A DNA stretch of 36,915 nt from a virus, in the IMG/VR virus record IMGVR_UViG_3300038619_000274, positions 1 through 36,915 of that record; one strand, given 5' to 3'. The notes below the pieces were generated by a model that saw only the letters and a list, made by a program, of their open reading frames with translations, ran no database searches and was not told the origin of the DNA. The stretch's first letter is position 1; each line of letters begins with the position of its first letter. This document shows positions 1,051 through 34,681 of this stretch, piece after piece. The translations under genes and the position numbers were made by a program.

Positions 1051-1055
1051 TCTGC

Positions 1056-5557: not shown

Positions 5558-6697
5558 GTGGCAGCTACCGATTTCGGCGCCTTGAGCGCCGCCCGCAAGA
5601 TCGTTTGGGCCAATGAGCTTTGGAAAGCCGGACGCGATCAGTCGTTCTGGTTTGCCAACGGCTTCATCGGCAAGAACGAAAGCGACATGAACTCCGTCAT
5701 CCAGCGTGTGACAAAGCTCACCGAGACCGAGCGCGGCTACGAGTGCGTGATGCAACTCGTGCTCGATATGCAGTCGGACGGCGTGGTCGGCGACAACGAA
5801 TTGGAGGGCAACGAAGAAGCCCTGCAAAACGACAGCCAAACCATCCGCATCGACCAGTTGCGCAACGGCAACAAGTCGAAAGGTGAAATGTCCGAGCAGG
5901 CGACCGTGATCCGGTTCCGCCAGACGTCGAAGGACAAGCTCACCTTCTGGCTGGCCGACAAGCTCGACGAACTTATGTTCCTCACCGTCTCGGGCGTGTC
6001 GTATTCCAGCACCTACAACCTCGCCACCCGCGTCAACAGCCAGCTTCCGTCGCTGACGTTTGCCGGCGACGTGGTGGCGCCGTCCGCGCAACGTGTCCTT
6101 TATGCGGGCACGGCGACCTCGACGGCGACCTTGACCACCTCGAACACGATGAATTGGGCAACCATCGTCGAGAGCAACACGCTCGCGTCCGAAAAGCGGC
6201 TCCGTCCGATCCGCGACGGCGGCCGAAACTACTACTGCATGGTGCTGCATCCCCGCCAGCGCCGTGACCTGGTGCTCGACCCGACCTATCAGACCATCGT
6301 GCGGTCGGCCGAGAACCGCAGCTCGAAGAACTCCTTGTTCAAGGGTGCGATCGCCACCGTCGACGGCGTGGTGATCCACTTCCACAACAAGGTGATCAAC
6401 ACCTCGGGGCTCTCGTCCGGCTCGAAGTGGGGCTCGGGCGGCACCGTGGATGGCGCGCAGGCGCTCGTGCTCGGCGCGCAAGCCGGCGGTATCGCCACGG
6501 TCGGCAATATGTTCTGGCGGGAAGCGGTGCTCACCGATTACGGCAACCGGCCCGGTATCGGCGTCGGTCGCAAGATCGGCATGCTCAAGCCGCAGTTCCT
6601 GTCGATCTATGACGAGTCTGCGAGCGGACCCGGCATCGGCCCGGCGACGCGCCAGGACTTCGGCGTCATCTCCGTTTACACCGCAGCCGCGGCGTAA
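5558..6697 (+). CDS. Major capsid protein, N4-gp56/DUF4043-like
   Basis: A 379-residue protein forming the main shell, by homology and position. It resembles the N4-gp56/DUF4043 capsid family: a conserved N-terminus (KIVWANELWKAGRDQSFW), an oligomer-contact region (TKLTETERGYECVMQLVLDM), the segment RQTSKDKLTFWLADKLDELMF, and a late HPRQRRDLVLDPTYQ followed by a beta-rich C-terminus. The GTG start at 5558 follows an ACGAGG site. It is directly preceded by the scaffold-like gene and directly followed by a strong terminator hairpin, as expected for a very highly expressed gene. The P22 coat fold is the main alternative given the P22-like portal, but the motifs fit DUF4043 better. Confidence 0.8.
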   Translation: MAATDFGALSAARKIVWANELWKAGRDQSFWFANGFIGKNESDMNSVIQRVTKLTETERGYECVMQLVLDMQSDGVVGDNELEGNEEALQNDSQTIRIDQLRNGNKSKGEMSEQATVIRFRQTSKDKLTFWLADKLDELMFLTVSGVSYSSTYNLATRVNSQLPSLTFAGDVVAPSAQRVLYAGTATSTATLTTSNTMNWATIVESNTLASEKRLRPIRDGGRNYYCMVLHPRQRRDLVLDPTYQTIVRSAENRSSKNSLFKGAIATVDGVVIHFHNKVINTSGLSSGSKWGSGGTVDGAQALVLGAQAGGIATVGNMFWREAVLTDYGNRPGIGVGRKIGMLKPQFLSIYDESASGPGIGPATRQDFGVISVYTAAAA

Positions 6698-15616: not shown

Positions 15617-17067
15617 TGGCAGGGAAACCGCACGGCGGCGCCGAGGACTGGATTCCTCTGCCTCTCGATAAAGGGCTGTTCGCCAATCTCGACCCGGATG
15701 TGGTCACTTCCTATGACACCGCGCTCGAAAACGCCTTCATCAACGAACTCGGCGGGATCTCGCGCTTTCCCGGCCTGGTGACGTTTGCCGACTTCTCAGG
15801 CGTCGACAATAGCCGGGTGCATGGCTTGCGCGACTTCGAGGGCGACCTGATCGCCACGACGCAGCGCGGCTCGGTATTTCGCATCGGGCAGAATGGCATC
15901 GTCACCAACTGCACGTCGGTTCCGGTGTCGGGTGGCCAACGCACCATCATGGCGCCGACCAACCAGGAGTTATTGCTGGCCGGAGGCGGCCCGATCGTGC
16001 GGCTGCGCCAAGCCACCACGGAATTGCTCTCCGAGGAAGCGCCGAACGCGGCCTATATCGGCTGGATCGACGGCTACACGATCGCCTGCGAGGTCAACAC
16101 CTTCGATTGGTTCTACGCCAATCCCGGCGTCGTCGATCAGTGGCCGGCGCTCAACAGCGAGGCGGCCGACTCGACGCCCGACAACATCACGGCGTTTCTG
16201 ATTGATCCGTACCGCGAATTGCTGTTCTGCGGCGCCAACAAGATCGAGCAATGGGAGCGGCTCACCACCGGCACCGATCCGTTCTTCCGCCGCTATGCCT
16301 GCGGCGAGGGCATCAAGCTGCCCTACGGCATCGTCTGGGCGGACAACTCGGTCTTCATCATCAACGCCAAGACCGAACTGGTGAAATTCAACCAGCAGAT
16401 TTCACAGAATGTCGGCGGCGAGATCGGTTTGTTGCTGGAGGAGATCGACGATTGGACGGATAGCTGGATCGGCGGCTATCCGGATCGGCCGCTCAACGTC
16501 GTCGGCCAAAAATTCATTCTCATCCAGGCGCCGAACGCAACGAACGAATACGGCACCAAGGGCGTCACGCTCATTTTCGATTATCGTAACAAGAAGTTTT
16601 TCCAGATTTACGGATGGGACAGCAAGCAAAGCGTGCCGACGCGCTGGCCCGGATGGAGTCATTGGCCAGCCTGGGACAACGTTTACGTCGGTGGTGAGGG
16701 CAAGGTTTATCAGCTCACCACCAACAGCTACGCAAACGACGGAAATCTGCAGCGCTGGCTGGTGCGAACCTCGCATATCAGCCAGGGCAATATGTTCCAG
16801 ATCACCAACTTCCGGCTGCGGCTCAAGCGCGGCATCGGCAGCGCGAACGCAGCGCCGCCGACGATCCGCGTGCGCTGCCGGCGCGACGCCGGCCCATTTT
16901 CCGCTTGGATCAATCGCGATCTCGGTGTGTCCGGCGACAACATACAATTCAAAAACTTTGGTCCGTTCGGGACGGCAACGAGCTTCATGTTCGAGATTTC
17001 GACCTCAGACCCGGTGCCGGTCAATCTGGTCAAGGCCGAAGTCAAAGGCTTCACGGTGGGGCATTAA
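15616..17067 (+). CDS. Tail hub / packaged-DNA stabilisation protein, P22 gp10-like
   Basis: A 483-residue protein rich in Trp, Tyr and beta-strand segments. It starts with PLPLDKGLFANLDPDVVTSYDTALENAFINELGG and carries propeller-like repeats (LLLAGGGPIVRLRQ, FCGANKIEQWERLT, VYVGGEGKVYQLTT), a pattern shared with P22 gp10-type proteins that form the hub below gp4 and plug the tail. It follows the tailspike gene with a one-base overlap and precedes the ejection genes. Assignment rests on N-terminal pattern, length and gene order; P22 gp10 itself is of similar size. Confidence 0.65.
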   Translation: MAGKPHGGAEDWIPLPLDKGLFANLDPDVVTSYDTALENAFINELGGISRFPGLVTFADFSGVDNSRVHGLRDFEGDLIATTQRGSVFRIGQNGIVTNCTSVPVSGGQRTIMAPTNQELLLAGGGPIVRLRQATTELLSEEAPNAAYIGWIDGYTIACEVNTFDWFYANPGVVDQWPALNSEAADSTPDNITAFLIDPYRELLFCGANKIEQWERLTTGTDPFFRRYACGEGIKLPYGIVWADNSVFIINAKTELVKFNQQISQNVGGEIGLLLEEIDDWTDSWIGGYPDRPLNVVGQKFILIQAPNATNEYGTKGVTLIFDYRNKKFFQIYGWDSKQSVPTRWPGWSHWPAWDNVYVGGEGKVYQLTTNSYANDGNLQRWLVRTSHISQGNMFQITNFRLRLKRGIGSANAAPPTIRVRCRRDAGPFSAWINRDLGVSGDNIQFKNFGPFGTATSFMFEISTSDPVPVNLVKAEVKGFTVGH

Positions 17068-20406: not shown

Positions 20407-22818
20407 ATGGCAAGTCCCCCAGCTCCCGACGATTGGGTCGTGCCGGAGCAAACAAACGCGGCCGCGGCGCCGGCGGACGATTGGGTCGTGCCGAAAGGCT
20501 CGATGCTGGAACGCGCGCACGCGGCGATCGAGGATAGTTCGGTCGGACGCGTGCAGCGCGCGGTGCTCGAGGGCGAGAAGCAAGGCTTCGGCTCCGAGCC
20601 GCTCGGCATTGTCGGCGGCTCGCCGACCGATCAGGCATTGACCAGGCTCGGCATCTTTCATGAGCCGGGCAAGGGTTATGTCGGGCCGCAGGGCACGGTG
20701 CAGCTCCTCGACGAAGCGATATTGCGCCCAAGTGCCGTAGCGGCCGACGCGTTCTTTCGCGCATTGAGCGCGGCGGGCAGCGGCGTCGCCGCCGGCGCCG
20801 GACAAGTGGCGCGCGAATTCGGCCAGAGCGAGCCGCAAGTCCGCAAGCTTACCGGCGACATCCAGACCGGCGAAGAACTCGCCGTGATGTCGCACATACC
20901 TGAGGCGGGCCTACTGGAATCGGGCCGCACTGTCGGCGCGCCGGCCTTCGAGAAAGTCCAAGCCTCGCCCGAGCAGATCGAGGATTTTCTCGCGCAGGCG
21001 GCGCGAGCACCGAACGCACCGACACCGCCGCCGTCAAAGACGCGGCAGGACATCGACGAATTCCTGCGCCAGCGCGAAGCGCGCGAGCAAGGGCAAGCCG
21101 CGCCGGCCGGCACGCCGCAACTGCCGCCGCCGGACGATTGGACGGTGCCGGCGGAGCAGGCCGCACCGGCGCCGCAACCGGCCGCGCCTTCAGGCGGTGC
21201 GCTCGACACGTTGTTCCCCTCACTCGATGAACCAGGCCGCGCGTCACCGCCGCCGGCGCAAGAGGTTGCCGATGATCGTCAAAACGGGGTCGGGCTACCA
21301 GGTGAAGTCGGAGCACGGCAAGAACCTGTCCAAAGCCAATCTGTCGAAGGGCCAAGCGGAGCGCCGGCTGGAGCAGGTGGAATACTTCAAGCACGCGCAC
21401 AAGAAGGGGCACCAGCGCCCGCAAACCAGACTTCAACATCAGCGGTAGGACCGCACACGCTGAAAGCGCTGCTCGACGATCCGCGCTCCGCCGACGAGAT
21501 CAGCGCGATCGCCGCGGCCGAGCATGGTGTCAGCGATGCGGTCGAAGCGCACGCGATCGCCGATGCGTCGTCACCAACCAATCAAATGGTTGTTGACAAC
21601 CAAACGGGGGTTAACCCCCAACCTGCCGTCGAGGACTGGCAAGCGGGCGTCGAAGCTGCAGCGCCGGCCGGCACCCGCGATGATCCAGTCGCGCTGTACG
21701 CGCCTACCGACGTGCACGCCGGCGCCGAGATCACCGCAACGCCGACACAAGGCCAGGCCGAAGCCGGCAATTACCGCAAGCGCCATGTCGAATGGCAGGG
21801 GCTGGATCTCACCGTCGAGACCGAAGCGGGCGCCGCGCGCACCGGCACCGGGCCCGGGGGCGTGCCTTGGTCGGTCACGCTGCAGAACCCCTACGGTTAC
21901 ATCAAGGGCACAAAAGGCCGCGACGGCGAGCAAATCGACGCCTATCTCGGCCCCGAACCGGCCTCCCCGCATGTCTTTGTCGTCGATCAGATCAATCCGG
22001 ATAGCGGCCGATTCGACGAGCACAAGGCGCTGATCGGCTTCGCGGACGAGCAAAGCGCCATTGCCGGCTATGTAGCGGGCTTTTCGGACGGCAGCGGCCA
22101 AGGCCGCCTGGGCGCCATTACGGCGCTCACCGTTGAGGGCTTTAAGGACTGGCTGTCGAAGGGCGTCCGGCGCAACCCCACCGCATACAGCGACCCTGTA
22201 CGCGCGATAGAGGGCGCGGCAAACGAAGCCGGGATGAACCTCACGGACGCCGAGGCGGAAGCCGCGGCTCACGCGAAAAAGGTCAGCAATGCTGACCCAA
22301 CCGAAGCATTACTCACCGTCGTCGATCATCAAGGGCTTGCGGCGGTCGACGGTGCGATAGAGACTGCCAAGACGGAAGGACTCACTGATGCCTGGACTGC
22401 TCACGGCGCGACAGAGAGTGAGGCTGGCGCAGGAATTGCGCCGGCGGGCGAACGGCCAGCCGAACCTGAAAGCGCGGGAGCGGAAGGAATTTCGCCGGCG
22501 AGCGTCGAACCTCATGGCGGCGAACAAGCTGGAAGCGCAGGCGAGCCGAGCGTAGCATCAAAGCCGGCCGCGCCCGTACCCGAGCCGGAAGCCGCGCCCG
22601 TCACGCGTGACGAAGCGCCGGCGGAGCCGAAAATCGTCGAGGCTGTCACCGTCGCCTATCTCAAAGACGTGACGAAGCGCGTGCCGTCTATGGGTGCTGG
22701 CGACAGGACGCGCGCCCGCGAGTTCATCGACACGATGTTGTCCAACATGGACAGCAACGGCAAGAAGCTCGCCGAGCATTGCGTCGAGACCGGCGGCAAG
22801 TTCTCGCTGCGCGGCTAA
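20407..22818 (+). CDS. Polyvalent protein with pyrophosphatase-like domain
   Basis: An 803-residue multi-domain protein, probably packaged and injected with DNA. The motif DDWVVP occurs at residues 8-13 and 24-29, with DDWTVP at 243-248. Residues about 454-585 resemble the inorganic-pyrophosphatase-like domain of phage polyvalent proteins: YGYIKGTKGRDGEQIDAYLG contains a D-G-E-x-I-D signature close to that of soluble pyrophosphatases, followed by HVFVVDQINP and DEHKALIGF. A small C-terminal domain ends with GGKFSLRG. Two stretches linking the domains (about 289-347 and 661-716) are low-complexity and overlap two nested genes in another frame. Substrate and activity are unknown. Confidence 0.75.
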   Translation: MASPPAPDDWVVPEQTNAAAAPADDWVVPKGSMLERAHAAIEDSSVGRVQRAVLEGEKQGFGSEPLGIVGGSPTDQALTRLGIFHEPGKGYVGPQGTVQLLDEAILRPSAVAADAFFRALSAAGSGVAAGAGQVAREFGQSEPQVRKLTGDIQTGEELAVMSHIPEAGLLESGRTVGAPAFEKVQASPEQIEDFLAQAARAPNAPTPPPSKTRQDIDEFLRQREAREQGQAAPAGTPQLPPPDDWTVPAEQAAPAPQPAAPSGGALDTLFPSLDEPGRASPPPAQEVADDRQNGVGLPGEVGARQEPVQSQSVEGPSGAPAGAGGILQARAQEGAPAPANQTSTSAVGPHTLKALLDDPRSADEISAIAAAEHGVSDAVEAHAIADASSPTNQMVVDNQTGVNPQPAVEDWQAGVEAAAPAGTRDDPVALYAPTDVHAGAEITATPTQGQAEAGNYRKRHVEWQGLDLTVETEAGAARTGTGPGGVPWSVTLQNPYGYIKGTKGRDGEQIDAYLGPEPASPHVFVVDQINPDSGRFDEHKALIGFADEQSAIAGYVAGFSDGSGQGRLGAITALTVEGFKDWLSKGVRRNPTAYSDPVRAIEGAANEAGMNLTDAEAEAAAHAKKVSNADPTEALLTVVDHQGLAAVDGAIETAKTEGLTDAWTAHGATESEAGAGIAPAGERPAEPESAGAEGISPASVEPHGGEQAGSAGEPSVASKPAAPVPEPEAAPVTRDEAPAEPKIVEAVTVAYLKDVTKRVPSMGAGDRTRAREFIDTMLSNMDSNGKKLAEHCVETGGKFSLRG
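21272..21448 (+). CDS. Nested small basic phage protein
   Basis: A 58-residue protein wholly inside the polyvalent gene, in the +1 frame. AGAGG at 21261-21265 sits 6 bases before the ATG. The sequence (YQVKSEHGKNLSKANLSKGQ, then AERRLEQVEYFKHAHKKG) resembles a widespread family of small Lys-rich phage proteins with a GKNL ... A..RL.QVE.FKH pattern. Third codon positions are almost all G or C until the last eight codons, as in real genes here, whereas the enclosing frame is locally poor in GC at third positions. Function unknown; a nucleic-acid-binding role is possible from charge. Confidence 0.75.
   Translation: MIVKTGSGYQVKSEHGKNLSKANLSKGQAERRLEQVEYFKHAHKKGHQRPQTRLQHQR
21588..21619. repeat. 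Two adjacent palindromes inside the polyvalent gene
   Basis: GGTTGTTGACAACC (6-bp arms around TG) is followed four bases later by GGGGGTTAACCCCC, a perfect 14-bp palindrome. The stretch is locally A/T-rich within GC-rich coding DNA. It may be a protein-binding site or a remnant of a former intergenic region. Confidence 0.5.
22388..22555 (+). CDS. Nested small Arg-rich protein
   Basis: A 55-residue protein wholly inside the polyvalent gene, in the +1 frame, starting 7 bases after GGAAGGA. It is strongly helical and basic (ARQRVRLAQELRRRANGQ, LKARERKEFRRRASNLMAANK) and resembles small DNA- or RNA-binding phage proteins, but no family is assigned. Third codon positions are strongly GC-biased in this frame, while the enclosing frame is mixed and gives low-complexity Ala/Gly/Glu/Pro sequence. 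It sits exactly at the junction between the pyrophosphatase-like domain and the C-terminal domain. Confidence 0.65.
   Translation: MPGLLTARQRVRLAQELRRRANGQPNLKARERKEFRRRASNLMAANKLEAQASRA
22600..22611. repeat. Repeated palindrome, copy 4
   Basis: GTCACGCGTGAC in the C-terminal part of the polyvalent gene, encoding Val-Thr-Arg-Asp at residues 732-735, 44 bases after the nested gene stop. Confidence 0.85.
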
Positions 22819-22997
22819 AGCGGTTCGTCAAATATCTGGCGGAGCCCGCAATCGCACACATACTCGCAGCTATAGACGCGCGCGCCACTCGGCCGCTCGC
22901 TTGGCGACGCCATCACGAGCTTCATCGGACCTTCGCACGCCGGACAGTAATGCGCCCAATCGGCCGCAAGCACGCGGCGGGTTTGTTGTACGGCCAT
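22815..22997 (-). CDS. Small zinc-ribbon-like protein
   Basis: A 60-residue minus-strand protein with two Cys pairs (HYCPACEGPM and CEYVCDCGL) that suggest a zinc-binding ribbon. An excellent ribosome site, AAGGAG, lies 6 bases before the ATG on the minus strand. Its TAG shares bases with the TAA of the polyvalent gene (CTAA). A hairpin at 23002-23020 covers the ribosome site. Likely a small regulator or accessory protein acquired as a single-gene insert. Confidence 0.75.
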   Translation of the reverse strand: MAVQQTRRVLAADWAHYCPACEGPMKLVMASPSERPSGARVYSCEYVCDCGLRQIFDEPL

Positions 22998-23135
22998 GAT
23001 CGTCTCCTTCTATGGGAGACGCCTTCCTGTCATCGCCGCCTGGATAGCGGGAGTGCCAGCCGAAAACTGTTCAAAACGACTCACTTTTAAGTAGCCGGCA
23101 ACACCGGCCAACCTCCCTCAAAAAAGGAGCAGACA
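22998..23135. promoter_or_regulatory. Divergent intergenic region
   Basis: This 138-base gap separates the minus-strand zinc-ribbon gene from the plus-strand SpeD-like gene, so promoters for both probably lie here. It contains an A/T-richer core (23066-23090) and a 5-bp hairpin (GCCGG/CCGGC, 23094-23108). No canonical -35/-10 pair is convincing. A strong AAGGAG site at 23124-23129 serves the plus gene. Confidence 0.45.
23002..23020 (-). promoter_or_regulatory. Hairpin covering a ribosome site
   Basis: GTCTCC (23002-23007) and GGAGAC (23015-23020) form a 6-bp stem. Read on the minus strand, the 3' arm contains the GGAG of the ribosome site of the zinc-ribbon gene, four bases before its ATG, so folding should hinder translation. 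Confidence 0.45.
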
Positions 23136-23546
23136 ATGGATCGACGGAGCAATCCGGCGAAGGCGCAGAGCGTTGCGCCGGCGCCGGATGAACTCGGCCG
23201 CCGCATGTTCATGCGCGGCATTGCGTTGCACGGCGCGCTCGACGAGCTGGAATGGCGGAGGCTGTTGCTCCACGCCGCGACCGCGCTCGGCATGTCGCCG
23301 GTCGGGGTGGCCGCAGCCTGGCGCTACCCGCTCAAAGACGGCTCGGGCGGCAACGGCACGACGATGGTGCAGCCGATCACCGAGAGCTTCCTCGCGCTCG
23401 ACACCTGGCCGGATTTAGGCGGCGCCTATCTGTTCGTGTGCTCCTGCAAGCCGTTCCCCCCCAACGTCCTCACCAAAACCATCGAAACCTTTGGCCTGCA
23501 GGTCGGCGAGGCTATCGGCGCGCCTGATTGTCTGAGGTTGTGCTGA
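23136..23546 (+). CDS. SpeD/SpeH-like (AdoMet decarboxylase-related) protein
   Basis: A 136-residue protein, the usual length of a bacterial/archaeal class S-adenosylmethionine decarboxylase proenzyme. The segment QPITESFLALDTWPDLGGAY aligns with the self-cleavage region of that family (ESHLTIHTYPE-like). Glu83-Ser84 would be the cleavage site forming the pyruvoyl cofactor, and C102/C104 lie where the catalytic Cys is found. The His needed for processing (five residues after Ser) is replaced by Asp89. It may therefore be a divergent or altered enzyme. The start ATG follows a strong AAGGAG site. The ATP-grasp gene begins two bases after it. The assignment is by pattern only. Confidence 0.55.
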   Translation: MDRRSNPAKAQSVAPAPDELGRRMFMRGIALHGALDELEWRRLLLHAATALGMSPVGVAAAWRYPLKDGSGGNGTTMVQPITESFLALDTWPDLGGAYLFVCSCKPFPPNVLTKTIETFGLQVGEAIGAPDCLRLC

Positions 23547-23547
23547 T

Positions 23548-24804
23548 ATGACCAATTATCGAAGCAAAACCTGCTGCGTCGTCGATAACGGCCTGTTTCT
23601 CGAAGTGGCGATCACGCTCGCCAAGGACTTCGGCAAGGTCCTCTATTACATGCCGTGGCAGTCCGGCTATCCGACGTCGAACGTGCTGCTCGTAGGCCAC
23701 GGTATTCCCGGCGTCACGCGCATCGACAGCTTTTGGCCGCTGCTCGACGAGATTGACCTGTTCGTGTTCCCCGACGTGTACGAGGGTCCGCTGCAGGAGC
23801 ATCTTGCGAGCCTCGGCAAGCGGGTGTGGGGCAGCCGCAACGGCGACCAGCTTGAGCTATTCCGCGCCGACAGCAAGAAACACATGAAGTCGCTTGGCAT
23901 CGACATTGGGCCGTGGAAACTCATCAAGGGCATCGACAAGCTGCGCGAACACCTTGAAAAGCACGACGATCAATGGGTGAAGATTTCGCGCACGCGCGGC
24001 GACTTCGAGACCTTCCACGCGGAAAACTACGACCTGGTGAAGCCCAAGATCGACGAGCTGGAGCACCAGCTCGGCGCCAAGGGCGAGATCATGGAATTCA
24101 TCGTCGAGGAAGGCATCCCCGACGCGGTGGAGATCGCCTACGACGGCTTCACCATCGACGGCAAGTTTGCCAAGAACGCGACGTTCGGCATCGAGGTCAA
24201 AGACAAGGGCCTGGTGACGAAGACCACCAAATACGACGCCCTGCCCGAGCAACTGCGCACGGTCAACGACAAGCTCAAAGGCACGCTGGCCGAATTCCGC
24301 TATCGCAACTTCCTCGCGGTCGAAATGCGGATCACCAAAGACGGCACGCCTTACGTGATTGATCCGTGCTGTCGCGCCGGCTCGCCGCCGTCCGAATTGC
24401 TGCTCGAACTGATCTGTAATTGGGCGGACATCATGTGGGAAGGCGCCGAGGGCACCGTGGTCGAGCCGGTGTTTCAGGCGAAGTGGGGCGCCGAGCTGCT
24501 GCTCATCTCCGATTGGGGCGACACCCACTGGCAACCGCTGCAATTCCCGAAGTCGATCCGCGAGCAAGTCAAGCTGCGCTACGCCGCTGTCATCGACGGC
24601 ACCTATTACGTCGTGCCGCAGGCCTCCGCGCATCCCGAGATCGGCGCCGTTGTCGCCACCGGCGACACGATGGACGCCGCGATCAAGGAAGTCTGCGCGA
24701 TCGCCGAGAAGGTGAAGGGCTTTTACGTCGAGGTCGTGCCCGAGTGCCTCGATGAAGCGCAGGAGCAATTCGACAAGCTGCGCGAGTTCGGGATTAAGGT
24801 TTAG
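23548..24804 (+). CDS. ATP-grasp ligase-like protein
   Basis: A 418-residue protein with an ATP-grasp profile. An N-terminal pre-grasp domain (about 1-110, with KTCCVVDNGLFLEVAITLAKDFG) is followed by a lid-like region (WVKISRTRGDFETFH, GEIMEFIVEEGIPDAVEIAYDGF), a metal/ATP-binding segment (FLAVEMRITKDGTPYVIDPCCRAG) and a C-terminal domain (EIGAVVATGDTMDAAIKEVCAIAE) resembling the end of PurD-type glycinamide ribonucleotide synthetases. Such enzymes ligate a carboxylate to an amine with ATP. It starts two bases after the SpeD-like gene and probably acts with it, but no substrate can be named. Its TAG overlaps the stop of the minus-strand gene as TTAG. Confidence 0.65.
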   Translation: MTNYRSKTCCVVDNGLFLEVAITLAKDFGKVLYYMPWQSGYPTSNVLLVGHGIPGVTRIDSFWPLLDEIDLFVFPDVYEGPLQEHLASLGKRVWGSRNGDQLELFRADSKKHMKSLGIDIGPWKLIKGIDKLREHLEKHDDQWVKISRTRGDFETFHAENYDLVKPKIDELEHQLGAKGEIMEFIVEEGIPDAVEIAYDGFTIDGKFAKNATFGIEVKDKGLVTKTTKYDALPEQLRTVNDKLKGTLAEFRYRNFLAVEMRITKDGTPYVIDPCCRAGSPPSELLLELICNWADIMWEGAEGTVVEPVFQAKWGAELLLISDWGDTHWQPLQFPKSIREQVKLRYAAVIDGTYYVVPQASAHPEIGAVVATGDTMDAAIKEVCAIAEKVKGFYVEVVPECLDEAQEQFDKLREFGIKV

Positions 24805-25316
24805 ATCGGGAAGATGGGCGTCCCGTCTCTCAGTAGCACATGCGGCATGCGCATCGCTTTGAGCATGTTGTTTTCTAAAACCTGCAGCTCGTCCTCGGTC
24901 ATTCCATTTTCGTCGCGGCGCGGCAGGCCGGCCTCGGCGCGCTCACTATCGGTGATGATTTGCACACCGTTGTCGAGAAACAGGTCCGATAGTTCAACCG
25001 CACACTCGCGGTACAAATTGCGTTCCGAGTGATCGCAAACATACCGCCCGACGATGTGCAGGACGGAGCCGAGCAGCTGCTGCGCCCGCCCGTAGCGCCG
25101 ATTGATCGTGATTTTCGGGCTGCCCGGCTTGGGCGCCGGCGGCAACGGCATCCAGTGTGTCGGCTCGATTCGGGTGTTCCAATTTCCTTCGCTGTCCCGA
25201 TAGCCGCCATCCTTAGCTCGATACGCTAGGCCAATCGCGCGCTTACCATCGCGCGGCCAGTAATAGATAAACATCTCGTCTTGAGGCGCCGTTTCGATCG
25301 GTTGCCAGCGAGCCAT
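24801..25316 (-). CDS. DUF551-like phage protein
   Basis: A 171-residue minus-strand protein. Its N-terminus (RWQPIETAPQDEMFIYYW ... PTHWMPLPPAP) matches the widespread DUF551-type phage pattern (W-P-I-E-T-A-P ... HWMPLP). A distinct C-terminal part (RRYGRAQQLLGSVLHIVGRYV onward) is helical and charged. I chose the ATG at 25316 because GGAGG lies six bases upstream; TTG codons further out give only a two-residue extension. Its stop overlaps the ATP-grasp stop, and its start is 11 bases from the start of the giant gene on the other strand. Function of the family is unknown. Confidence 0.75.
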   Translation of the reverse strand: MARWQPIETAPQDEMFIYYWPRDGKRAIGLAYRAKDGGYRDSEGNWNTRIEPTHWMPLPPAPKPGSPKITINRRYGRAQQLLGSVLHIVGRYVCDHSERNLYRECAVELSDLFLDNGVQIITDSERAEAGLPRRDENGMTEDELQVLENNMLKAMRMPHVLLRDGTPIFPI

Positions 25317-25327
25317 CAACAACCTCC

Positions 25328-28300
25328 ATGATCCGCTGTCCCAACTTCCGCTCCGATAAGGCGCGGGATGACTTCAATGCTGTGCTGGCGCGGCTCGGCG
25401 GCGTAGCCATGTCCGCCGACGACATCTCGCCGCGGCAACCCTATCTCGCGCGCCTCAACGAAAAGCAAACGCAGGCTTATCACGTCGCGCACTATTTATG
25501 GAACGCGCACAAGACGCCGGCGGAGATCGGGGCTTTCCTCGATGCACTCGACCAGGTGAGGGATGCGCTGGAGGCAGAGCCGGCGCCGACACCCGCAAAA
25601 ACGCTGGCACCAGCGCAAAAAGCGGAGAACGAAACGGGACGGCCTCCTTCTGTTCCGGGTGACGTAGCGTCAACCGAAGCCGCCCCGCTGTCGAACCTGC
25701 CGGCGATCAATCTGGCGCGGGATCTGCTCGAACGGCTGCGCGCCGGCAAGCCGATCTCGACCAAGATCATGCAGCAGATGGCGGCCGAGATTTATGGCGC
25801 CAAGCTGTCCGAGGGGCATTTCGACCGCAAGGACATGCAGGACGCGCTTGAGCTTGCGGTGAACATGCGGATTGCCGAAGACGCCGCATTGCGCACCGAT
25901 AAGGGCGAGTGGCGCGAGCCGATGGCGAAGCTCGACGAGCTTTTGTCGAAGCTGCCGACACAGCGGGTGCGCTCCGAGGAACAAGAGAGCTTCCAGCAAT
26001 TCTCGACGCCACCGACCTATAGCGCTGCCGCGGCCTATGCCGCGAACCTGCGCGATGGCGACGTCGTGCTTGAGCCTTCGGCCGGCACCGGCTCGCTGGT
26101 CGCGGCGACCTCAAAGCCGGGCGTGAAAATTATCGCCAACGAATTGTCCGAGCGGCGCACCGCGCTGCTGCGCGCGCTGATCGGCGACCGGATTTTTCAC
26201 GAGAACGCCGAGCAGCTCAACAACACGCTGCCCGACAGCGTGAAGCCTTCCATCGTGGTGATGAACCCGCCGTTTTCGCAGACCGCCGGCCGCATGGGCG
26301 ACAAGAAGGTGCCGATGACCGGCGCCATCCACGTCGAGCAAGGCTTAAAGCGCCTCGAACCGGGTGGGCGCCTGGTGGCGATCGTCGGCCGCGGCATGAC
26401 CATGGGGGCGCCGGTCTATCGCGCCTGGTGGTCGAAGATTGGCAAGGAATACACCGTCCGCGCCAATATCGGCGTCGACGGCAAGGTGTTCGAGAAATAC
26501 GGCACCACTTTCGGCACTCGTTTACTCGTCATAGATAAGGTGAAGCCGACCGGCGAAGCGCCGGTTTTGGCAGACGCGCAGACGGTCGATGACCTGATGC
26601 GCGCATTGGAGCCGATCCGAAATGCCCGGACTGCCGCAGAACAACATGGTGCTCAATCGGCTGGCGCTGAATTGGCTGAAGCAAGCCAAGACGCCGGGGG
26701 TGCCCCATTATCTGAACCTGCTGCTGCTGGCGGAGTGGGGCCTGGAGAACGGGGCATCGGGGGGCTGGCCGGAGAAGGAGCGACCAGCACTGCGGGATCA
26801 GGTGAACCTGATGTTCGGGTGGAAGCCGGCGAACACGCTGGCGTGGCTGCTGTCGAACCCGGAAGCGGGCGACCGAGCGGAGCAACAGGACAATCTCCTG
26901 AAGTTGCTGGAGGCCGTGGACAACCCGAAGGACGCGGCGGCGCACGTCCTCAACGCAATCTGGGACCGGCTGGTGGCGACGACGCCGCAGCTACAGCCCG
27001 CAGCGAGCGAGTTGAGCTAGAGCACGCCGAGCCTGGTTCGCAGGGCGCAGCGGAAATTTCCGACAGCCTCTACGATCAGTACCGCCCGCAGCGCGTCAAA
27101 GTGCCGGGCGCCAAGCCGCATCCGTCAAAGCTCGTCGAATCCGCGGCGATGGCATCCGTGCCGCCGCCGGCGCCGACGTACAAGCCGAGCCTGCCGCGCG
27201 CGGTGATCGAGAAGGGCTTGCTCTCCGACGCGCAGATCGAACCCGTCATCTATGCCGGCGAGGCGCACGCCAAGATGTTGCCGGCGGCGGAAGGCGAGCC
27301 GGCGAGGCGCAAGGGCTTTTTCATCGGCGACGGCACCGGCGTCGGCAAAGGCCGCGAGGTCGCCGGCATCATCCTCGATAACTGGAACCAGGGGCGCACC
27401 AAGGCCGTGTGGGTGTCGGAGAAGCGAAAGCTGCTCACCGACGCCAAGCGCGACTGGAAGGGGCTGCAACAAAACCCCGATCACCTTTTCGACGTGGGCA
27501 AGGTCAAGACCGGCGAGCCGATCGACGCCAAGAAGGGCATCGCGTTTGTTACCTACGACACGCTCAAGGGCGGCATGTCGGATCAAGCGGCGCTCTCCCG
27601 CGGCGGTTTCGTGCGCAAGCAGTCCGTCTCGGTCAACGGCCAGCCTGGCTTGGTGCAATCGGTCGGCAAAGTCGCGCGCGGCAAACCGGCGCAGATCACC
27701 GTCAAGCTCGAAAACGGCACCACCGTCACCGTGCCGGCGAAAGAAGTGAAGGCGGAGGAAAAGGCCGCGGTCAAATCGCGCATCGACCAGCTCGCCGATT
27801 GGTTCGGCAAGGACTTCGACGGCGTGATTGCTTTCGATGAAGCCCACAACATGGGCAACGCCACCGACACCAAGGGCGACCGCGGACAGAAAGACGCGGC
27901 GATGAAGGCAATCGCCGGCATGGACCTGCAGAAGCGGCTCCCCAACGCCCGCATTGTCTATGTCTCCGCCACCGGCGCCACCGAGGTTTCCAATCTCGCT
28001 TATGCCGATCGGCTCGGGCTGTGGGGCAGGGGCACGCCGTTTGCCTCGCGCGCCGCGTTCGTCTCGCAAGTCACCGAAGGCGGCATCGCGGCGATGGAGC
28101 TCATCGCCCGCGACATGAAGCAGCTCGGCCTCTACACCGCGCGCAATCTCTCCTATGACGGCGTTGAATACGATCGCGTCGAGCACAAGCTCGATGCCAA
28201 CCAGCGCGAGATTTACGACACGTTGGCGCAAGCCTGGCAGGTGGTGCTGCGCGACATCAACGCGGCGCTCAAGCTCACCGGCGGCAACTTCGACAGCCGC

Positions 28301-31300
28301 GCGAAGTCCGCCGCCATGTCGGCGTTTTGGGGCGGCCATCAGCGGTTTTTCAATCAGATCATCACCTCGATGCAGATGCCGTCCGTCGTCAAGGCGGTCG
28401 AGCAGGATCTCGCGGCCGGCCGGCAGGTGGTGCTGCAACTCACCAACACCAACGAGGCGTCGCAGGAGCGCGCCGCGGCGAAAGCGCAGACCGCCGAGGA
28501 CATCGAGGACCTCGACATCACGCCGCGCGACCAGATCATCCAGCTCGTCGAAAACTCGTTCCCGACGCAGGAATATGAAACCTACGTCGACGACGACGGC
28601 AAGGAGCGCTCGCGCCCGGTGGTCGATAGCAACGGCAATGCGGTGCAGAACAAGGAAGCCGTCGCCATGCGCGAGCGGCTGATCGACCAGTTGGCTTCGG
28701 TGCGCGTGCCGCAGGGACCGCTCGACCTGGTGCTCGATCACTTTGGCGTCGATACGGTCGCCGAAGTCACCGGCCGCGGGCGCCGTTTTGTGCTCAAGCC
28801 CGACGAGAAAACCGGGCAGAAGCGCCGCGTCGAGGAAAGCCGGCCGGGCTCGGCCAACCAGGCGGAGACCGACGCCTTCCAGGAGGGCAAGAAGAAAGTC
28901 CTGATCTTCTCGGAAGCCGGCGGCACTGGCGCGTCTTACCATGCCGACAATACCGCGGCCTCGAAGGACGCGCGGCGCTCGCACTACCTGGTGCAAGGCG
29001 GCTGGCGCGCCGACAAGGCGGTGCAGGGCTTTGGCCGTACCCACCGCAGCAACCAGGCGTCGGCGCCAATCTTCCGGCTGGTGACGACGGACCTGCAGGG
29101 GCAGAAGCGGTTTATCTCCTCGATCGCGCGCCGGCTCGGGCAGCTCGGCGCGCTCACCAAGGGCGAACGCAAAGCCGGCGACCAAGGCATCTTCTCGGCC
29201 CGCGACAATCTCGAAAGCACCGAGGCGCGCACCGCGCTCACACAGTTTTTCCGGGACATCTACAACAACGCCGTTCCCGGCATCGACATCAACGACTTCG
29301 AGGAACAGACCGGCCTGAAGCTGCGCAACAAGGACGAGGAAGGCCGCAGCATGGGGATGCTGGAGGACTTGCCGCCGATCACGCAATTCCTCAACCGGCT
29401 ATTGTCGCTCAAGTTCGACCTGCAGAACACCACGTTCAACTCGTTCTCGGAACGGCTCGACGCGGTGATCGAGGCGCGGCGCGAGGCCGGCCTGCTCGAT
29501 GTGGGCCTGGAAACCGTCAAGGCCGACAAGATCGCCAAGGAGACCGAGCAGACCGTGCATACGGTCGAAGGCTCGGGCGCGCAGACAAAATACGTCAAGC
29601 TGAAATTGTCAGACAAGTTCAAGGCCACCGACTTCGATACCGTGGCCTCGAACGAATGGCGCAAGGTGACGGCCTGGCTCGAAAGCCCGAACGGCAAAGT
29701 GTACGCCGCGGCCGAGGCGCCGAGCCTCACGGACGCCAGCACCGGCCGCATCATCGACAGCTATCGCCTTGTCAGTCCGGTGTCGGATTCGCGCACCATC
29801 AACAAGGAGAACGTCGAGAAGCCCGATACCAAGTGGAAGAAGATCGAAAAGAGCGAAGCCTCCGCGCTGTGGCGCAAGGAGATCGCCGCCGCGCCTGAGT
29901 ATGTCACGCGTGACATGCACCTGATTACCGGTGCGATCCTGCCGATCTGGGATCGGCTCAAAGGCAACCCCCGCGTGGTACGGCTTGCGACCGAGGCCGG
30001 CGAGCGGCTGATCGGGCGCGTTGTGCCAAACGACGCGATCGCCGCCACGCTTAAAGCTCTCGGCGCCGAAGCAAAGGCACAGAGCTACACGGCCGCGGAC
30101 GTGTTCCTGAAGGTGCGCGCCGGCGGCCGCGCTACGCTGGCAAACGGCTGGACCTTGAGCCGGCGCCTGGTCGCCGGCGAGCACCGCATCGAATTGACCG
30201 GCCCGAGCGCATTTTCCGAAGCGCAGGAGGTCAAGAAAGACGGCGTGTTCACCGAGCGCATCGACTATAAGACGCGGTTTTTCGTGCCGACCGACGCCGA
30301 AGCAGGCTCTCGCGTCATCGAGCGCCTCACCCAATACCGGCCGGTGACGGACCTGGTGGAGCGCGGCGCCGCACCCCACGACATGGCCGCCGGCGACGAG
30401 CCGATGTTCTCGGTGAAGGGCGACGATCGTGTTAAGGGCGAAAGCGACGCACTCGCGGAAGCGGTCGCGCGGCGTCTTTTGCCGGCGTTGCGCGCCGAGC
30501 TTGACCGGATGGGCCTCTCGGACATTCCGCTCAATCTGCCCGGCACGCTGACGGCGCGCATCGGCGCCAAAAAGTACGAACTCAACGGCTATTACTTCCG
30601 CCAAGCGATCACGATTGCGCTCAATGCCGAAGACATCGGGCGAACCTTGCACCATGAGGCGCTGCACGCGCTTCACGATCTCGGGGTGTTCAAAGACACC
30701 GAATGGCAAATCCTGACGCGGCAATCCGACCGCGCCTGGCGCAAGCAATTCCGCATCGAGGAGGGTTACGCGCATCTGGCTGATGAGCTGCGCACCGAGG
30801 AAGGTATCGCCCACGCCTACGCCGCCTGGGCAAAAGGCGAGATGAAAGTGGACGGTCGGATCGCCCGGCTGTTCAAGCGCATCCGCGACTTCTTCGAAGC
30901 GTTGCGCAACGCGCTGCGCGGGCTTGGCTTCAAAAGCGCCGAGGACGTGTTCCGCAACATCAAAGAAGGCGAGATCGGGAACCGAGCACGCGCCGGCGCC
31001 GGCGACGAGCCGATGTTCGAGATGCGCCGGGACAATGCGCCGGCGGAAGCTCGCGCCACGCCGAACCTCAACCGCCGCATCCGCGACCGCATCGAAGCGG
31101 CGCTCGACAGCAAGTTCGGCCGCAAATTCATCGAGGGGACGCAAGACCTCTCGCACCCGGTCAAGCTCTTGCAGGACGAGCTTGAAATGCGCCGGGAAGG
31201 CGCCTTCGAGGACCCGGAGGACTTCTACACCCGCAAGCGCCTTTATCCCGGCCGCGTCGGCGCCTGGACCGACACCTTCAACAAGAAGCATCTCGATCCG

Positions 31301-33484
31301 ATCGTGCGGCTGTTGAAGGCCAACAATATTCCGCTAGCCGACGCCGGCGACTTCCTCTACGCGCTGCACGCCGCCGAGCGCAACGAGGCCATGGACAGGA
31401 TCAATCCCGGCCTTGGCGGCGAAGGCTCGGGCATGTCGAACGAGGAAGCCGCCAAGATCATCGCCGAAGTCAAGCGCGGCGAGCACGCCGCCGCCTTCGA
31501 CGAGCTGCGCGAGAAAGTCGGCAAAATCCGCGACCTGATCCTCAACGTGATGGAGAAGTCCGGGCTAGAAAAGCCCGAGGTCATCGCCGAATGGAAGAAA
31601 CGCTACGAGGACTATGTTCCGCTGCGCGGGTGGGAAGTGGAGCCGGACGATGCGCCGCCGGAATTTCGCGGACCTGGCGCTGGCTTCAATGTCCGCGGCA
31701 AAGAGGTCAAGCAGGCGCTTGGCCGCCGCTCGAAGGCCGACAACCCGATCGTCAACCTGTTTGACCAGGCGTATCGCACCTTCGATCGCGCCGAGCGGAA
31801 CCGTTACCTGCAATCGCTCTACCGCGCGATTGATGATCTCGGCGACGAGGCGTCCGACGTCGCCACGCTCGATCGCGGCAAGCCGCAGCGCACCATAGAC
31901 AAGCGCACCGGCCTGGTCAAAACCGTGGAGAATTCCGGCCAGTATATGAACCCGAAGGCGGTCTATCTTAAATTCGACGGCAATCCGCACTTCATGGTGT
32001 TTGCCGATCAGGAGCTTGCCGAAGCGGTCAAGCGCATGAGCGCGGACAGCGTAGGCATCTTTCACGCCTATCTGAAGCTGCAGAACAAGATGAAGGCGCT
32101 ATGGACGCATTACAGCCCCGACTTCTTGTTCCGGCATTTCATGTTCCGCTACCCGATCGAGGGCGCGCTCAACTCGTTCGAGCAAAAGGAGGGCGGCGAG
32201 CATAAGGTCAATCAGTATATCCGCGACGCCTTCCCGTTCGTCGGCAGGGCCAGCAAAGCTATCTTTGCTTCCAACAAGGGGATCGTTCACGACGATCCAG
32301 CAATCCGGGAAATGCAGGAGGTATGGGATAAAGTCCGGCGCGGCGGCGGGGCGATGATGTTTCGCAACATGCGCGACATCGACCTCACCCGCGAGCACCT
32401 GCAGACCGCGCTCAAGGACTTGTCCGATCGGCCGCTCGCCAACGCGCGCGCCAAGTGGCGGCACGGCATCGAGGCGTTGGATACAATCACCAATGCGCTC
32501 GACAACTCGCTCCGGCTAGCTGCGGCATATTCTGCGATCAAGCAAGGCAAGACCGTGCAGCAGGCGGCGCTGATCGCGCGCGAGGCCACGGTTGATTTCC
32601 AGCTCAAGGGCCGCTGGAACAACCTCATGGGCATCTTCTTTCCGTTCTCCAACGTCGCCATCCAGACCACCGCGCGGATGACCAAGGCGGTTTATCGCTC
32701 GCGCATCATGCGGCGCGTGTTCGGCTCGACGCTGCTCGCGGGCTTCCTCGTGTCGGCGTTCAATTATCTCGTCGCCGGCGACGACAAGGACAGCATCCCG
32801 TTCTTCGACAAAATCCCGGAGTGGGACCGGCGGCTCAACTTCATCATCCTCAACCCGTTCGATACCGACGACAAAGGCCCGCAGCCGATCAAGATACCGA
32901 TGCCGTACAATTGGGCGTTCCCGCTCGTGCTCGGCTACGCCTTCGGCGGCATGATGTTCGGCAAGGAAGGACCAAAAAAACTGATGACCATGCTGGCACG
33001 CTCGGCAATGGAGACCTTCACCCCGCTCGGCTCGGAACAGAACCTCGCCGGCATAGCGACGCCGGAAGCCTTCCGGCCGCTCGTTCACATCTACACCAAC
33101 GAGGATTGGGCCGGGCGCCCGATCCACGTCGACCCCGATTTCCAGAAACGCCCGAACGCCTATTCGCCGAGGAAAACCACCGGCGCCGGCTGGTCGGCGA
33201 TCGCCAAGGGCGTCAATACCGCGACCGGCGGCTCACCAGGCAAGTCCGGCGTGCTCGACCTCTACCCCGAAGATTACCGGGAAATGATCGACCAGTTCGC
33301 CGGCACGCAAATCCGGCTCGGACAGAACATTTGGGACACCGGCGAATCGGTAGCCGAAGGCAAATGGCCGCAAGCGACGAAAATCCCGCTCGAACGCGTC
33401 ATCCGCGGCACCGACTATGACGCCGCCGATCGCGCGCGCGGCGATGAAGCACGCGATCGACAAAAGCATCCGTGGAAGCACTGA
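25328..33484 (+). CDS. Giant DarB-like polyvalent protein (methyltransferase-helicase-protease)
   Basis: A 2718-residue protein, probably injected with DNA to block host restriction, as P1 DarB does. Domains in order: N-terminal region; adenine N6-methyltransferase (about 220-420) with LEPSAGTGSL and NPPF near 313-316; low-complexity linker (about 435-580); SF2 helicase of the strawberry-notch type (about 580-1300) with Walker A GDGTGVGKG (from 667), DEAH (837-840), SATG (about 879) and QGFGRTHR (1233-1240). A zincin follows with HEALH at 1776-1780, then helical regions and an LPD38-like C-terminus with hydrophobic helix GSTLLAGFLVSAFNYLV and the motif DLYPEDY. DEPMF motifs occur before and after the zincin. 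There is no good ribosome site at the ATG; MSADDIS at 25412 is an alternative start. The linker contains a nested gene. Confidence 0.85.
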   Translation: MIRCPNFRSDKARDDFNAVLARLGGVAMSADDISPRQPYLARLNEKQTQAYHVAHYLWNAHKTPAEIGAFLDALDQVRDALEAEPAPTPAKTLAPAQKAENETGRPPSVPGDVASTEAAPLSNLPAINLARDLLERLRAGKPISTKIMQQMAAEIYGAKLSEGHFDRKDMQDALELAVNMRIAEDAALRTDKGEWREPMAKLDELLSKLPTQRVRSEEQESFQQFSTPPTYSAAAAYAANLRDGDVVLEPSAGTGSLVAATSKPGVKIIANELSERRTALLRALIGDRIFHENAEQLNNTLPDSVKPSIVVMNPPFSQTAGRMGDKKVPMTGAIHVEQGLKRLEPGGRLVAIVGRGMTMGAPVYRAWWSKIGKEYTVRANIGVDGKVFEKYGTTFGTRLLVIDKVKPTGEAPVLADAQTVDDLMRALEPIRNARTAAEQHGAQSAGAELAEASQDAGGAPLSEPAAAGGVGPGERGIGGLAGEGATSTAGSGEPDVRVEAGEHAGVAAVEPGSGRPSGATGQSPEVAGGRGQPEGRGGARPQRNLGPAGGDDAAATARSERVELEHAEPGSQGAAEISDSLYDQYRPQRVKVPGAKPHPSKLVESAAMASVPPPAPTYKPSLPRAVIEKGLLSDAQIEPVIYAGEAHAKMLPAAEGEPARRKGFFIGDGTGVGKGREVAGIILDNWNQGRTKAVWVSEKRKLLTDAKRDWKGLQQNPDHLFDVGKVKTGEPIDAKKGIAFVTYDTLKGGMSDQAALSRGGFVRKQSVSVNGQPGLVQSVGKVARGKPAQITVKLENGTTVTVPAKEVKAEEKAAVKSRIDQLADWFGKDFDGVIAFDEAHNMGNATDTKGDRGQKDAAMKAIAGMDLQKRLPNARIVYVSATGATEVSNLAYADRLGLWGRGTPFASRAAFVSQVTEGGIAAMELIARDMKQLGLYTARNLSYDGVEYDRVEHKLDANQREIYDTLAQAWQVVLRDINAALKLTGGNFDSRAKSAAMSAFWGGHQRFFNQIITSMQMPSVVKAVEQDLAAGRQVVLQLTNTNEASQERAAAKAQTAEDIEDLDITPRDQIIQLVENSFPTQEYETYVDDDGKERSRPVVDSNGNAVQNKEAVAMRERLIDQLASVRVPQGPLDLVLDHFGVDTVAEVTGRGRRFVLKPDEKTGQKRRVEESRPGSANQAETDAFQEGKKKVLIFSEAGGTGASYHADNTAASKDARRSHYLVQGGWRADKAVQGFGRTHRSNQASAPIFRLVTTDLQGQKRFISSIARRLGQLGALTKGERKAGDQGIFSARDNLESTEARTALTQFFRDIYNNAVPGIDINDFEEQTGLKLRNKDEEGRSMGMLEDLPPITQFLNRLLSLKFDLQNTTFNSFSERLDAVIEARREAGLLDVGLETVKADKIAKETEQTVHTVEGSGAQTKYVKLKLSDKFKATDFDTVASNEWRKVTAWLESPNGKVYAAAEAPSLTDASTGRIIDSYRLVSPVSDSRTINKENVEKPDTKWKKIEKSEASALWRKEIAAAPEYVTRDMHLITGAILPIWDRLKGNPRVVRLATEAGERLIGRVVPNDAIAATLKALGAEAKAQSYTAADVFLKVRAGGRATLANGWTLSRRLVAGEHRIELTGPSAFSEAQEVKKDGVFTERIDYKTRFFVPTDAEAGSRVIERLTQYRPVTDLVERGAAPHDMAAGDEPMFSVKGDDRVKGESDALAEAVARRLLPALRAELDRMGLSDIPLNLPGTLTARIGAKKYELNGYYFRQAITIALNAEDIGRTLHHEALHALHDLGVFKDTEWQILTRQSDRAWRKQFRIEEGYAHLADELRTEEGIAHAYAAWAKGEMKVDGRIARLFKRIRDFFEALRNALRGLGFKSAEDVFRNIKEGEIGNRARAGAGDEPMFEMRRDNAPAEARATPNLNRRIRDRIEAALDSKFGRKFIEGTQDLSHPVKLLQDELEMRREGAFEDPEDFYTRKRLYPGRVGAWTDTFNKKHLDPIVRLLKANNIPLADAGDFLYALHAAERNEAMDRINPGLGGEGSGMSNEEAAKIIAEVKRGEHAAAFDELREKVGKIRDLILNVMEKSGLEKPEVIAEWKKRYEDYVPLRGWEVEPDDAPPEFRGPGAGFNVRGKEVKQALGRRSKADNPIVNLFDQAYRTFDRAERNRYLQSLYRAIDDLGDEASDVATLDRGKPQRTIDKRTGLVKTVENSGQYMNPKAVYLKFDGNPHFMVFADQELAEAVKRMSADSVGIFHAYLKLQNKMKALWTHYSPDFLFRHFMFRYPIEGALNSFEQKEGGEHKVNQYIRDAFPFVGRASKAIFASNKGIVHDDPAIREMQEVWDKVRRGGGAMMFRNMRDIDLTREHLQTALKDLSDRPLANARAKWRHGIEALDTITNALDNSLRLAAAYSAIKQGKTVQQAALIAREATVDFQLKGRWNNLMGIFFPFSNVAIQTTARMTKAVYRSRIMRRVFGSTLLAGFLVSAFNYLVAGDDKDSIPFFDKIPEWDRRLNFIILNPFDTDDKGPQPIKIPMPYNWAFPLVLGYAFGGMMFGKEGPKKLMTMLARSAMETFTPLGSEQNLAGIATPEAFRPLVHIYTNEDWAGRPIHVDPDFQKRPNAYSPRKTTGAGWSAIAKGVNTATGGSPGKSGVLDLYPEDYREMIDQFAGTQIRLGQNIWDTGESVAEGKWPQATKIPLERVIRGTDYDAADRARGDEARDRQKHPWKH
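26622..27020 (+). CDS. Nested 132-residue protein inside the giant polyvalent gene
   Basis: An open frame in the +1 frame of the giant gene, lying exactly on the linker between the methyltransferase and helicase domains. Composition is that of a globular helical protein (LNRLALNWLKQAKTPGVP, YLNLLLLAEWGLENG, VNLMFGWKPANTLAWLLSNP, LLKLLEAVDNPKDAAAH). Third codon positions are nearly all G or C in this frame, while the giant frame here has many A/T third positions and encodes Ala/Gly/Glu-rich sequence. GGAG at 26608-26611 is ten bases from the ATG, a weak site; the ATG at 26646 is an alternative. No family recognised; function unknown. Confidence 0.7.
   Translation: MPGLPQNNMVLNRLALNWLKQAKTPGVPHYLNLLLLAEWGLENGASGGWPEKERPALRDQVNLMFGWKPANTLAWLLSNPEAGDRAEQQDNLLKLLEAVDNPKDAAAHVLNAIWDRLVATTPQLQPAASELS
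29903..29914. repeat. Repeated palindrome, copy 5
   Basis: GTCACGCGTGAC within the giant polyvalent gene, encoding Val-Thr-Arg-Asp. Flanking bases extend it to ATGTCACGCGTGACAT, a 16-bp perfect palindrome. Confidence 0.85.
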
Positions 33485-34504: not shown

Positions 34505-34681
34505 TTAATCAACGCCGTGCTTCGGACAACCGTGCACCCACTCGCCGGCGATCTTATTCGACTTCCAACCTTCGCGCTTTGCTGCGGGCCAAACCTCATT
34601 CCATTCGTCGCTGTCGCCGACGAATATCTCATCGCAGCTATCGCACTCGATGACGATCTTGCCGTGCTGGTGGTCGATCAT
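34505..34681 (-). CDS. Small Cys-rich phage protein
   Basis: A 58-residue minus-strand protein with CDSCDEIF near residue 13 and a C-terminal CPKHGVD, a Cys-x-x-Cys ... Cys-x-x-His arrangement that suggests a zinc site, around the block SDEWNEVWPAAKREGWKSNK. This pattern is common in small phage and prophage proteins of unknown function. The ATG overlaps the TGA of the HerA-like gene as ATGA, and GGGAGG lies just upstream, so translation is coupled. Confidence 0.75.
   Translation of the reverse strand: MIDHQHGKIVIECDSCDEIFVGDSDEWNEVWPAAKREGWKSNKIAGEWVHGCPKHGVD

Follow-up and report, generated by a model that had tools for sequence, protein, structure and literature searches.

A recurrent, apparently undescribed phage gene pair encoding a SpeD-like protein and a PurD-like ATP-grasp ligase

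Background

The AdoMetDC (SpeD) fold and the ATP-grasp fold support two chemistries, namely pyruvoyl-dependent α-decarboxylation, which gives an amine, and the ATP-driven coupling of a carboxylate with an amine, respectively. According to the accessible text of two studies, relatives of SpeD in phages and bacteria, SpeDC and SpeDA, decarboxylate ornithine or arginine (PMC9992855, PMC10407285), and Gln, Thr, Phe and Tyr are diagnostic of SpeDC (PMC10407285). The same text calls the processing histidine, His68 of the T. maritima enzyme, essential and expects it to be conserved in AdoMetDC/SpeD, SpeDA and SpeDC (PMC10407285), while the available part of a study of human AdoMetDC reports that loss of the matching histidine slows activation and that the second processing step needs it (PMC3975893). 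Trypanosome AdoMetDC is reported to be regulated by a catalytically dead "prozyme" of the same fold (PMC5201418). Bacterial operons in which AdoMetDC accompanies a glutathionylspermidine-synthetase-like ATP-grasp protein are described in the accessible part of another report (PMC11237479, citing Li 2019), and the phage amidoligase modules of PA11, phiRIO-1 and phiM6 comprise seven genes, as far as the available text of their description goes (PMC6256558). In the literature searched, which left subscription papers and preprints mostly outside, we found no description of a SpeD and ATP-grasp pair in phages.

Here we analyse such a pair. It is real, recurrent and apparently undescribed, and consists of known kinds of enzyme with an unusual change in one active site. 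The reading that we favour, while rating it somewhat below an even chance, is a two-enzyme phage pathway, with an amine produced by the SpeD-like enzyme and then joined to a carboxylate by the ligase.

Locus layout and folds of the two proteins

The DNA analysed, henceforth the window, is the whole stretch of 36,915 nucleotides of the IMG/VR virus record IMGVR_UViG_3300038619_000274. On its plus strand the SpeD-like ORF (23136..23546, 136 aa) is followed by the PurD-like ATP-grasp ligase ORF (23548..24804, 418 aa) after a single base (23547), rather than the two bases given in a preliminary description of this locus. The plus-strand AAGGAG at 23124..23129, 6 bases 5' of the SpeD-like ATG, is Shine-Dalgarno-like as read from the sequence. 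The ORF 5' of the SpeD-like gene (22815-22997) is on the opposite strand, as the divergent promoter region of that description would have it, but no sigma-70-like site was detected in 22600-25400, for which shuffled sequences average 0.7. The placement of the pair in a virion-gene region holds, since the portal (954-3101), major head protein (5558-6694) and head closure (15616-17064) genes are all found in the window, on the plus strand.

Other ORFs of the window include one for an 803-aa protein directly upstream of the pair (20407-22818), with a polyvalent-protein-type inorganic-pyrophosphatase domain (PF18823, 157.9 bits), and a minus-strand, DUF551-like ORF (24801-25322; 23.7 bits, cut-off 22) that overlaps the end of the ligase gene by 4 bases. 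Beyond these lie a 2718-aa polyvalent-type protein (25328-33484), residues 1-724 of which match phage DNA methyltransferase families, and a large-terminase-like ORF (34678-36498; phrog_2666, residues 25-241) on the minus strand, the portal, head and tail genes being on the plus strand.

The SpeD-like protein scores 27.3 bits against the Pfam AdoMet_dc model (cut-off 25), which is also matched at E <= 0.01 by 43 of its 49 aligned relatives. The best PDB relatives of its AlphaFold2 model (mean pLDDT 90.8) are the T. maritima AdoMetDC structures 1vr7/1tlu (Z 13.0, 107 residues, rmsd 2.9, 18% identity), with the first clearly unrelated fold at Z 8.2. The score above a curated cut-off together with the AdoMetDC fold makes 23136-23546 a member of the AdoMet_dc fold superfamily, in agreement with its preliminary naming as SpeD/SpeH-like.

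The second protein had been called an ATP-grasp ligase, and its AlphaFold2 model (pLDDT 96.5) bears this out by aligning over nearly its full length with glycinamide ribonucleotide (GAR) synthetases (Z 31.8, 373 residues, 15% identity). PurD is the sole PDB match of the family profile at E <= 0.01. The direct NCBIfam purD match of the window ligase is weak, at 19.5 bits far under the equivalog cut-off of 288, and weak matches to this model occur in 25 of the 67 ligase members. No Pfam, PHROG or PADLOC family was matched by the window ligase; across the 67 members no Pfam ATP-grasp model was matched and PHROG gave one weak match, and a glutathionylspermidine-synthetase-type Pfam model matched neither the window ligase nor any member. 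A viral structure library returned partial ATP-grasp matches only, with a best query TM-score of 0.45 among the matches listed. A defence system was considered and rejected, there being no PADLOC match.

Conservation within the family is strict at the presumptive active site: Lys145, Arg150, Glu154, Glu187, Glu195, Asp199, Glu216, Lys218, Glu259, Asp272, Arg276 and Asn291 are invariant in all 67 rows. Going by the roles of such residues in the ATP-grasp fold, Lys145 (codon 23980..23982, plus strand) is the probable ATP lysine, and Glu259 (24322..24324, plus strand) and Asp272 (24361..24363, plus strand), the latter in a DPxxR motif, are probable Mg ligands. This invariance is as would be expected of a working ATP-grasp enzyme, and on the strength of the modelled fold, with the lysine, acidic Mg ligands and arginine in place and their roles assigned from the fold, the protein belongs to the ATP-grasp superfamily.

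Aspartate in place of the processing histidine

Ser84 of the SpeD-like protein (codon 23385..23387, plus strand) aligns with T. maritima Ser63 and is the predicted pyruvoyl residue, and Cys104 (23445..23447, plus strand) corresponds to the catalytic Cys83. Both residues, together with Gly74, are invariant in 49 of 49 SpeD-like rows, and the serine and cysteine also in all 50 phage rows of a larger set. The protein therefore has the pyruvoyl serine and catalytic cysteine of catalytic AdoMetDC/SpeD, SpeDA and SpeDC, but the processing histidine common to these is replaced by Asp89 (23400..23402, plus strand), aligned with T. maritima His68. The preliminary description was correct on both counts, having predicted cleavage at Glu83-Ser84 and seen a His-to-Asp change near the cleavage serine. 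Among the 49 SpeD-like rows, 43 carry Asp at position 89, 5 carry His and 1 carries Glu. The corresponding counts in the larger set are 44, 5 and 1 (n=50) for phages, against 48 of 51 cell rows with His, the other three having Ser, Ala and a gap, respectively. The pyruvoyl serine is absent in three of the 51 cell rows and the cysteine likewise in three.

Loss of the processing histidine might mean that the SpeD-like protein has no decarboxylase role and acts instead as a self-processing or non-processing, prozyme-like regulator of the ligase. The tight genetic coupling of the two genes and, in the text available, the prozyme-type regulation known for the AdoMetDC fold (PMC5201418) would fit such a role, but Ser84 and Cys104 would be needless in a dead partner and are nonetheless present in every one of the 50 phage rows, and we regard such a role as very unlikely. 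For a two-enzyme pathway the Asp-bearing protein would have to mature, and its invariant serine and cysteine suggest that it does.

Several other members of the SpeD family depart from the usual pattern. The bacterial proteins L151 and L164 lack both the pyruvoyl serine and the cysteine and are possibly inactive paralogues, and in L159, also bacterial, the alignment has a long insertion right before the cleavage serine that may be an artefact. A canonical-lineage phage SpeD adjoining a ligase (L045:5421-5771) also has Asp for the processing histidine (ESHICLDT), apparently independently.

A distinct phage clade of SpeD-like proteins

In a tree of the SpeD family (100 rows, with the largely unaligned c_L161 omitted and the fragmentary phage rows L020 and L107 excluded from the alignment), a branch with an SH-aLRT of 86 separates off 44 phage rows, in which position 89 is Asp in 43 and Glu in the remaining one, L023. 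This D-clade is set apart from 37 cell SpeD rows, 13 ornithine-decarboxylase-type Thr rows and 6 canonical-lineage phage rows, and its support is moderate owing to few alignment columns and long branches. The cell rows derive from a single phylum sample (148 genomes, of which 71 gave a match) and represent the best 30 loci, 20 weaker ones and L111. As judged from this alignment, the D-clade is outside the sampled canonical and ODC-like SpeD groups. Changes at His68, at the Asp located four residues ahead of the cysteine and at the Pro following TW distinguish it from canonical SpeD. With columns inferred from the 13 ODC-type cell rows, the window protein shows Gln79 and Tyr98 of the SpeDC diagnostic set, but has Glu83 and Trp91 at the other positions.

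These results bear on the earlier proposal that the SpeD-like protein makes decarboxylated AdoMet (dcAdoMet), with the ligase or an unseen transferase putting an aminopropyl-type group on a target. The fold and the Pfam match do point to AdoMetDC, the canonical-lineage SpeDs found beside a ligase in six loci resemble ordinary class 1b SpeD (five with His), the equivalent of T. maritima Glu72, Asp93 in the window, is Asp in 34 of the 50 phage rows, and the bacterial operons of PMC11237479, so far as its accessible text describes them, join AdoMetDC to an ATP-grasp protein of a different, glutathionylspermidine-synthetase-like kind. The proposal is nevertheless left unsupported by the position of the D-clade outside canonical AdoMetDC, with the departures listed above, by the ornithine- or arginine-decarboxylating phage relatives, and by a search for spermidine synthase that, with working controls, came up empty in all 22 pair-bearing records (possibly fragments). 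Moreover, to our knowledge transfer of the aminopropyl group from dcAdoMet lies outside the chemistry of ATP-grasp ligases, which could use only the free amine end of this molecule. In the genome of Bradyrhizobium sp. YR681 (G001), the sole named isolate genome carrying the pair, the SpeD of the pair is the only AdoMet_dc match, but there are two Spermine_synth (spermidine-synthase-like) matches, so that a host spermidine synthase is possible for a SpeD plus SpeE route. Altogether we consider dcAdoMet supply quite unlikely, and in the two-enzyme pathway AdoMet would be a less likely substrate of the SpeD-like enzyme than a compound resembling ornithine or arginine, or a new one.

The same records bear on hypermodification of DNA, in which the pair would attach an amine to a modified base of the phage genome. 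Phage phiW-14, with its putrescine-modified thymine, is a precedent, and the pair lies among packaging genes in many loci. A thymidylate-synthase-like (hydroxymethylase-like) gene was, however, found in 0 of the 22 pair-bearing records, again with working controls and with records that may be fragments. A route through such enzymes was accordingly rejected, and we hold DNA hypermodification as a whole to be highly improbable.

Recurrence and genomic setting of the pair

Scans of IMG/VR and a genome collection yielded 118 confirmed ligase loci, of which 80 were retained, along with 23 loci found by SpeD and 4 genome loci. A ligase is present in 21 of the 23 loci found by SpeD alone, the exceptions being L108, which is cut by the contig end, and L109, and SpeD is present in 40 of the 66 ligase-found loci with more than 1.5 kb upstream, or 38 of 59 clusters at 95% identity. 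The search for the pair in other phages that the preliminary description had proposed is thus positive, and of the two outcomes it had named as telling against its reading, unrelated folds and absence of the pair from relatives, neither was observed. SpeD is always upstream of the ligase on the same strand in the pair loci, and among 69 of these (duplicates included) the frames overlap in 29, lie within 30 bases in 12 and within 200 in 11, and are farther apart in 17. No SpeD was found elsewhere in any of 27 records lacking one near the ligase, and together with the 26 of 66 ligase loci without SpeD this implies that the ligase can act without it or uses a host amine. The pair is not bound to one genomic spot: in searches with two portal families, the portal lies at most 3 kb downstream of it in 30 loci, upstream in 3 and farther away in 2, including the window, and none was seen in 18.

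The occurrence of each gene without the other, in those 26 ligase loci and in L109, would also fit a chance meeting of unconnected auxiliary genes at one insertion spot among the late genes, with the SpeD supplying polyamines and the ligase serving some other end, and lone SpeD genes are indeed known in phages according to the accessible text of PMC9992855. This is unlikely in our view, given the ligase in 21 of 23 SpeD-found loci, the fixed order and strand, the overlapping frames in 29 of 69 loci, and the persistence of the pair across differing surroundings and a change of SpeD lineage. The six ligases with a canonical-lineage SpeD are nested in a well-supported group whose ligases mostly have D-clade partners, pointing to at least one exchange of SpeD with the pairing kept, and retention of a SpeD-fold enzyme through such a change argues for functional dependence.

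Two stronger evolutionary claims were rejected. Several independent swaps of SpeD had been suggested by a first tree with up to four changes, but when the canonical lineage is treated as a whole, an AU test does not reject the six ligases as one clade (p 0.739), and the tree holding them together is better by 22 log units. Specific co-evolution of SpeD and ligase was also dropped: their mirror-tree distance correlation over 15 loci (r 0.81) is matched by those of each with the portal (0.87 and 0.84), and general co-inheritance by shared descent explains it.

L109 carries a D-clade SpeD (L109:9983-10366) without a ligase where L042 has both, the two loci having a common terminase-portal-SpeD-head order (gene names being our reading of the ORFs). 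A small protein family with conserved H(E/A)L..E and EPG..P.APY adjoins the ligase or SpeD, on either side, in 17 loci (e.g. L068:9573-10001, L072:9621-9989, L083:11253-11648). Queries with the ligase and the D-clade SpeD gave no credible match in 50,697 isolate phage records, the one weak match (E 0.5) being put down to chance, while the canonical-lineage SpeD of L025 matches three phage records. The ligase had no match in 72,556 plasmid records. Close copies of the window may be missing from what these searches cover.

Proposed pathway

In the two-enzyme pathway that we favour, the SpeD-fold proenzyme would cleave itself before Ser84 to create the pyruvoyl group, and the pyruvoyl enzyme would decarboxylate an α-amino acid to a primary amine. 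The PurD-like ligase would turn a carboxylate into an acyl-phosphate and couple it to this amine, and the resulting amide may be a polyamine-type conjugate or a protein tag. From its position, the pair would probably be expressed late with the structural genes. The starting points computed here are the two folds, the invariant pyruvoyl serine, the catalytic cysteine, the ATP/Mg-type residues and the recurrent same-strand pairing, from which we infer the enzymatic activity and the order of the steps. Against this pathway speak the 26 of 66 ligase loci without SpeD, the SpeD without ligase in L109 and the replacement of the histidine on which the second processing step usually depends. Nor was a third pathway gene identified. 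The small protein family is a candidate for such a role, but it occurs on either side of the two genes, and its four tested members gave no match over Pfam cut-offs.

A bolder version, possible but doubtful, is a phage-specific system unknown in cells, in which a new class of pyruvoyl decarboxylase with Asp in the role of the processing histidine works with its own ligase family, and the amine conjugate helps to assemble virions, package the genome or take over the host. That the pair represents an undescribed phage pathway, as the preliminary description had suggested, is plausible. If so, a further group of phage SpeD proteins would join the AdoMet and ornithine/arginine decarboxylases, a processing histidine supposed to be fixed would prove exchangeable, and a ligase family missed by isolate-based phage collections would receive a name. 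The pair would also offer a short, expressible two-gene target for discovering a phage metabolite, or a modification of proteins, that is new.

Comparison with known systems

With class 1b AdoMetDC/SpeD (SpeH), represented by T. maritima TM0655, the window SpeD shares the fold over the aligned 107 residues, the pyruvoyl serine, the later cysteine, the Glu preceding the serine and a Gly ten residues earlier. It differs in its low identity (18%), in the Asp that the D-clade has for His68, in the Asp four residues before the cysteine (VDIFTC), which is mostly lost, and in a YP...GKGG stretch before the cleavage site. SpeDC and SpeDA resemble it as phage-borne proteins of the SpeD fold, and Tyr98 and an S-C-K/R motif are common to the D-clade and the 13 SpeDC-like cell rows, with Gln79 in half of the phage rows. 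Unlike them, the D-clade has Asp for His (43 Asp and one Glu among 44), forms a separate clade, lacks the Thr before the serine (Glu in 43 and Asp in 7 of the 50 phage rows) and has Trp rather than Phe at position 91. The ligase is like PurD in fold over its whole length and unlike it in identity (15-18%), in the absence from all 67 rows of GREHA, which we take to be the N-terminal PurD motif, and in a DPxxRxGSPP that replaces a PurD motif.

As to the pairing itself, the bacterial AdoMetDC/ATP-grasp operons, in the accessible account of them (PMC11237479), similarly combine a SpeD-family gene with a nearby ATP-grasp ligase, in a context beyond plain spermidine synthesis, whereas the window ligase belongs to another ATP-grasp branch and is phage-borne. 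The phage amidoligase modules have seven genes, with SpeD going unmentioned in the available text (PMC6256558), and the window ligase is without a credible match in the phage collection; even so, these modules and the present pair have in common that genes for making peptide or amide bonds are carried by phages.
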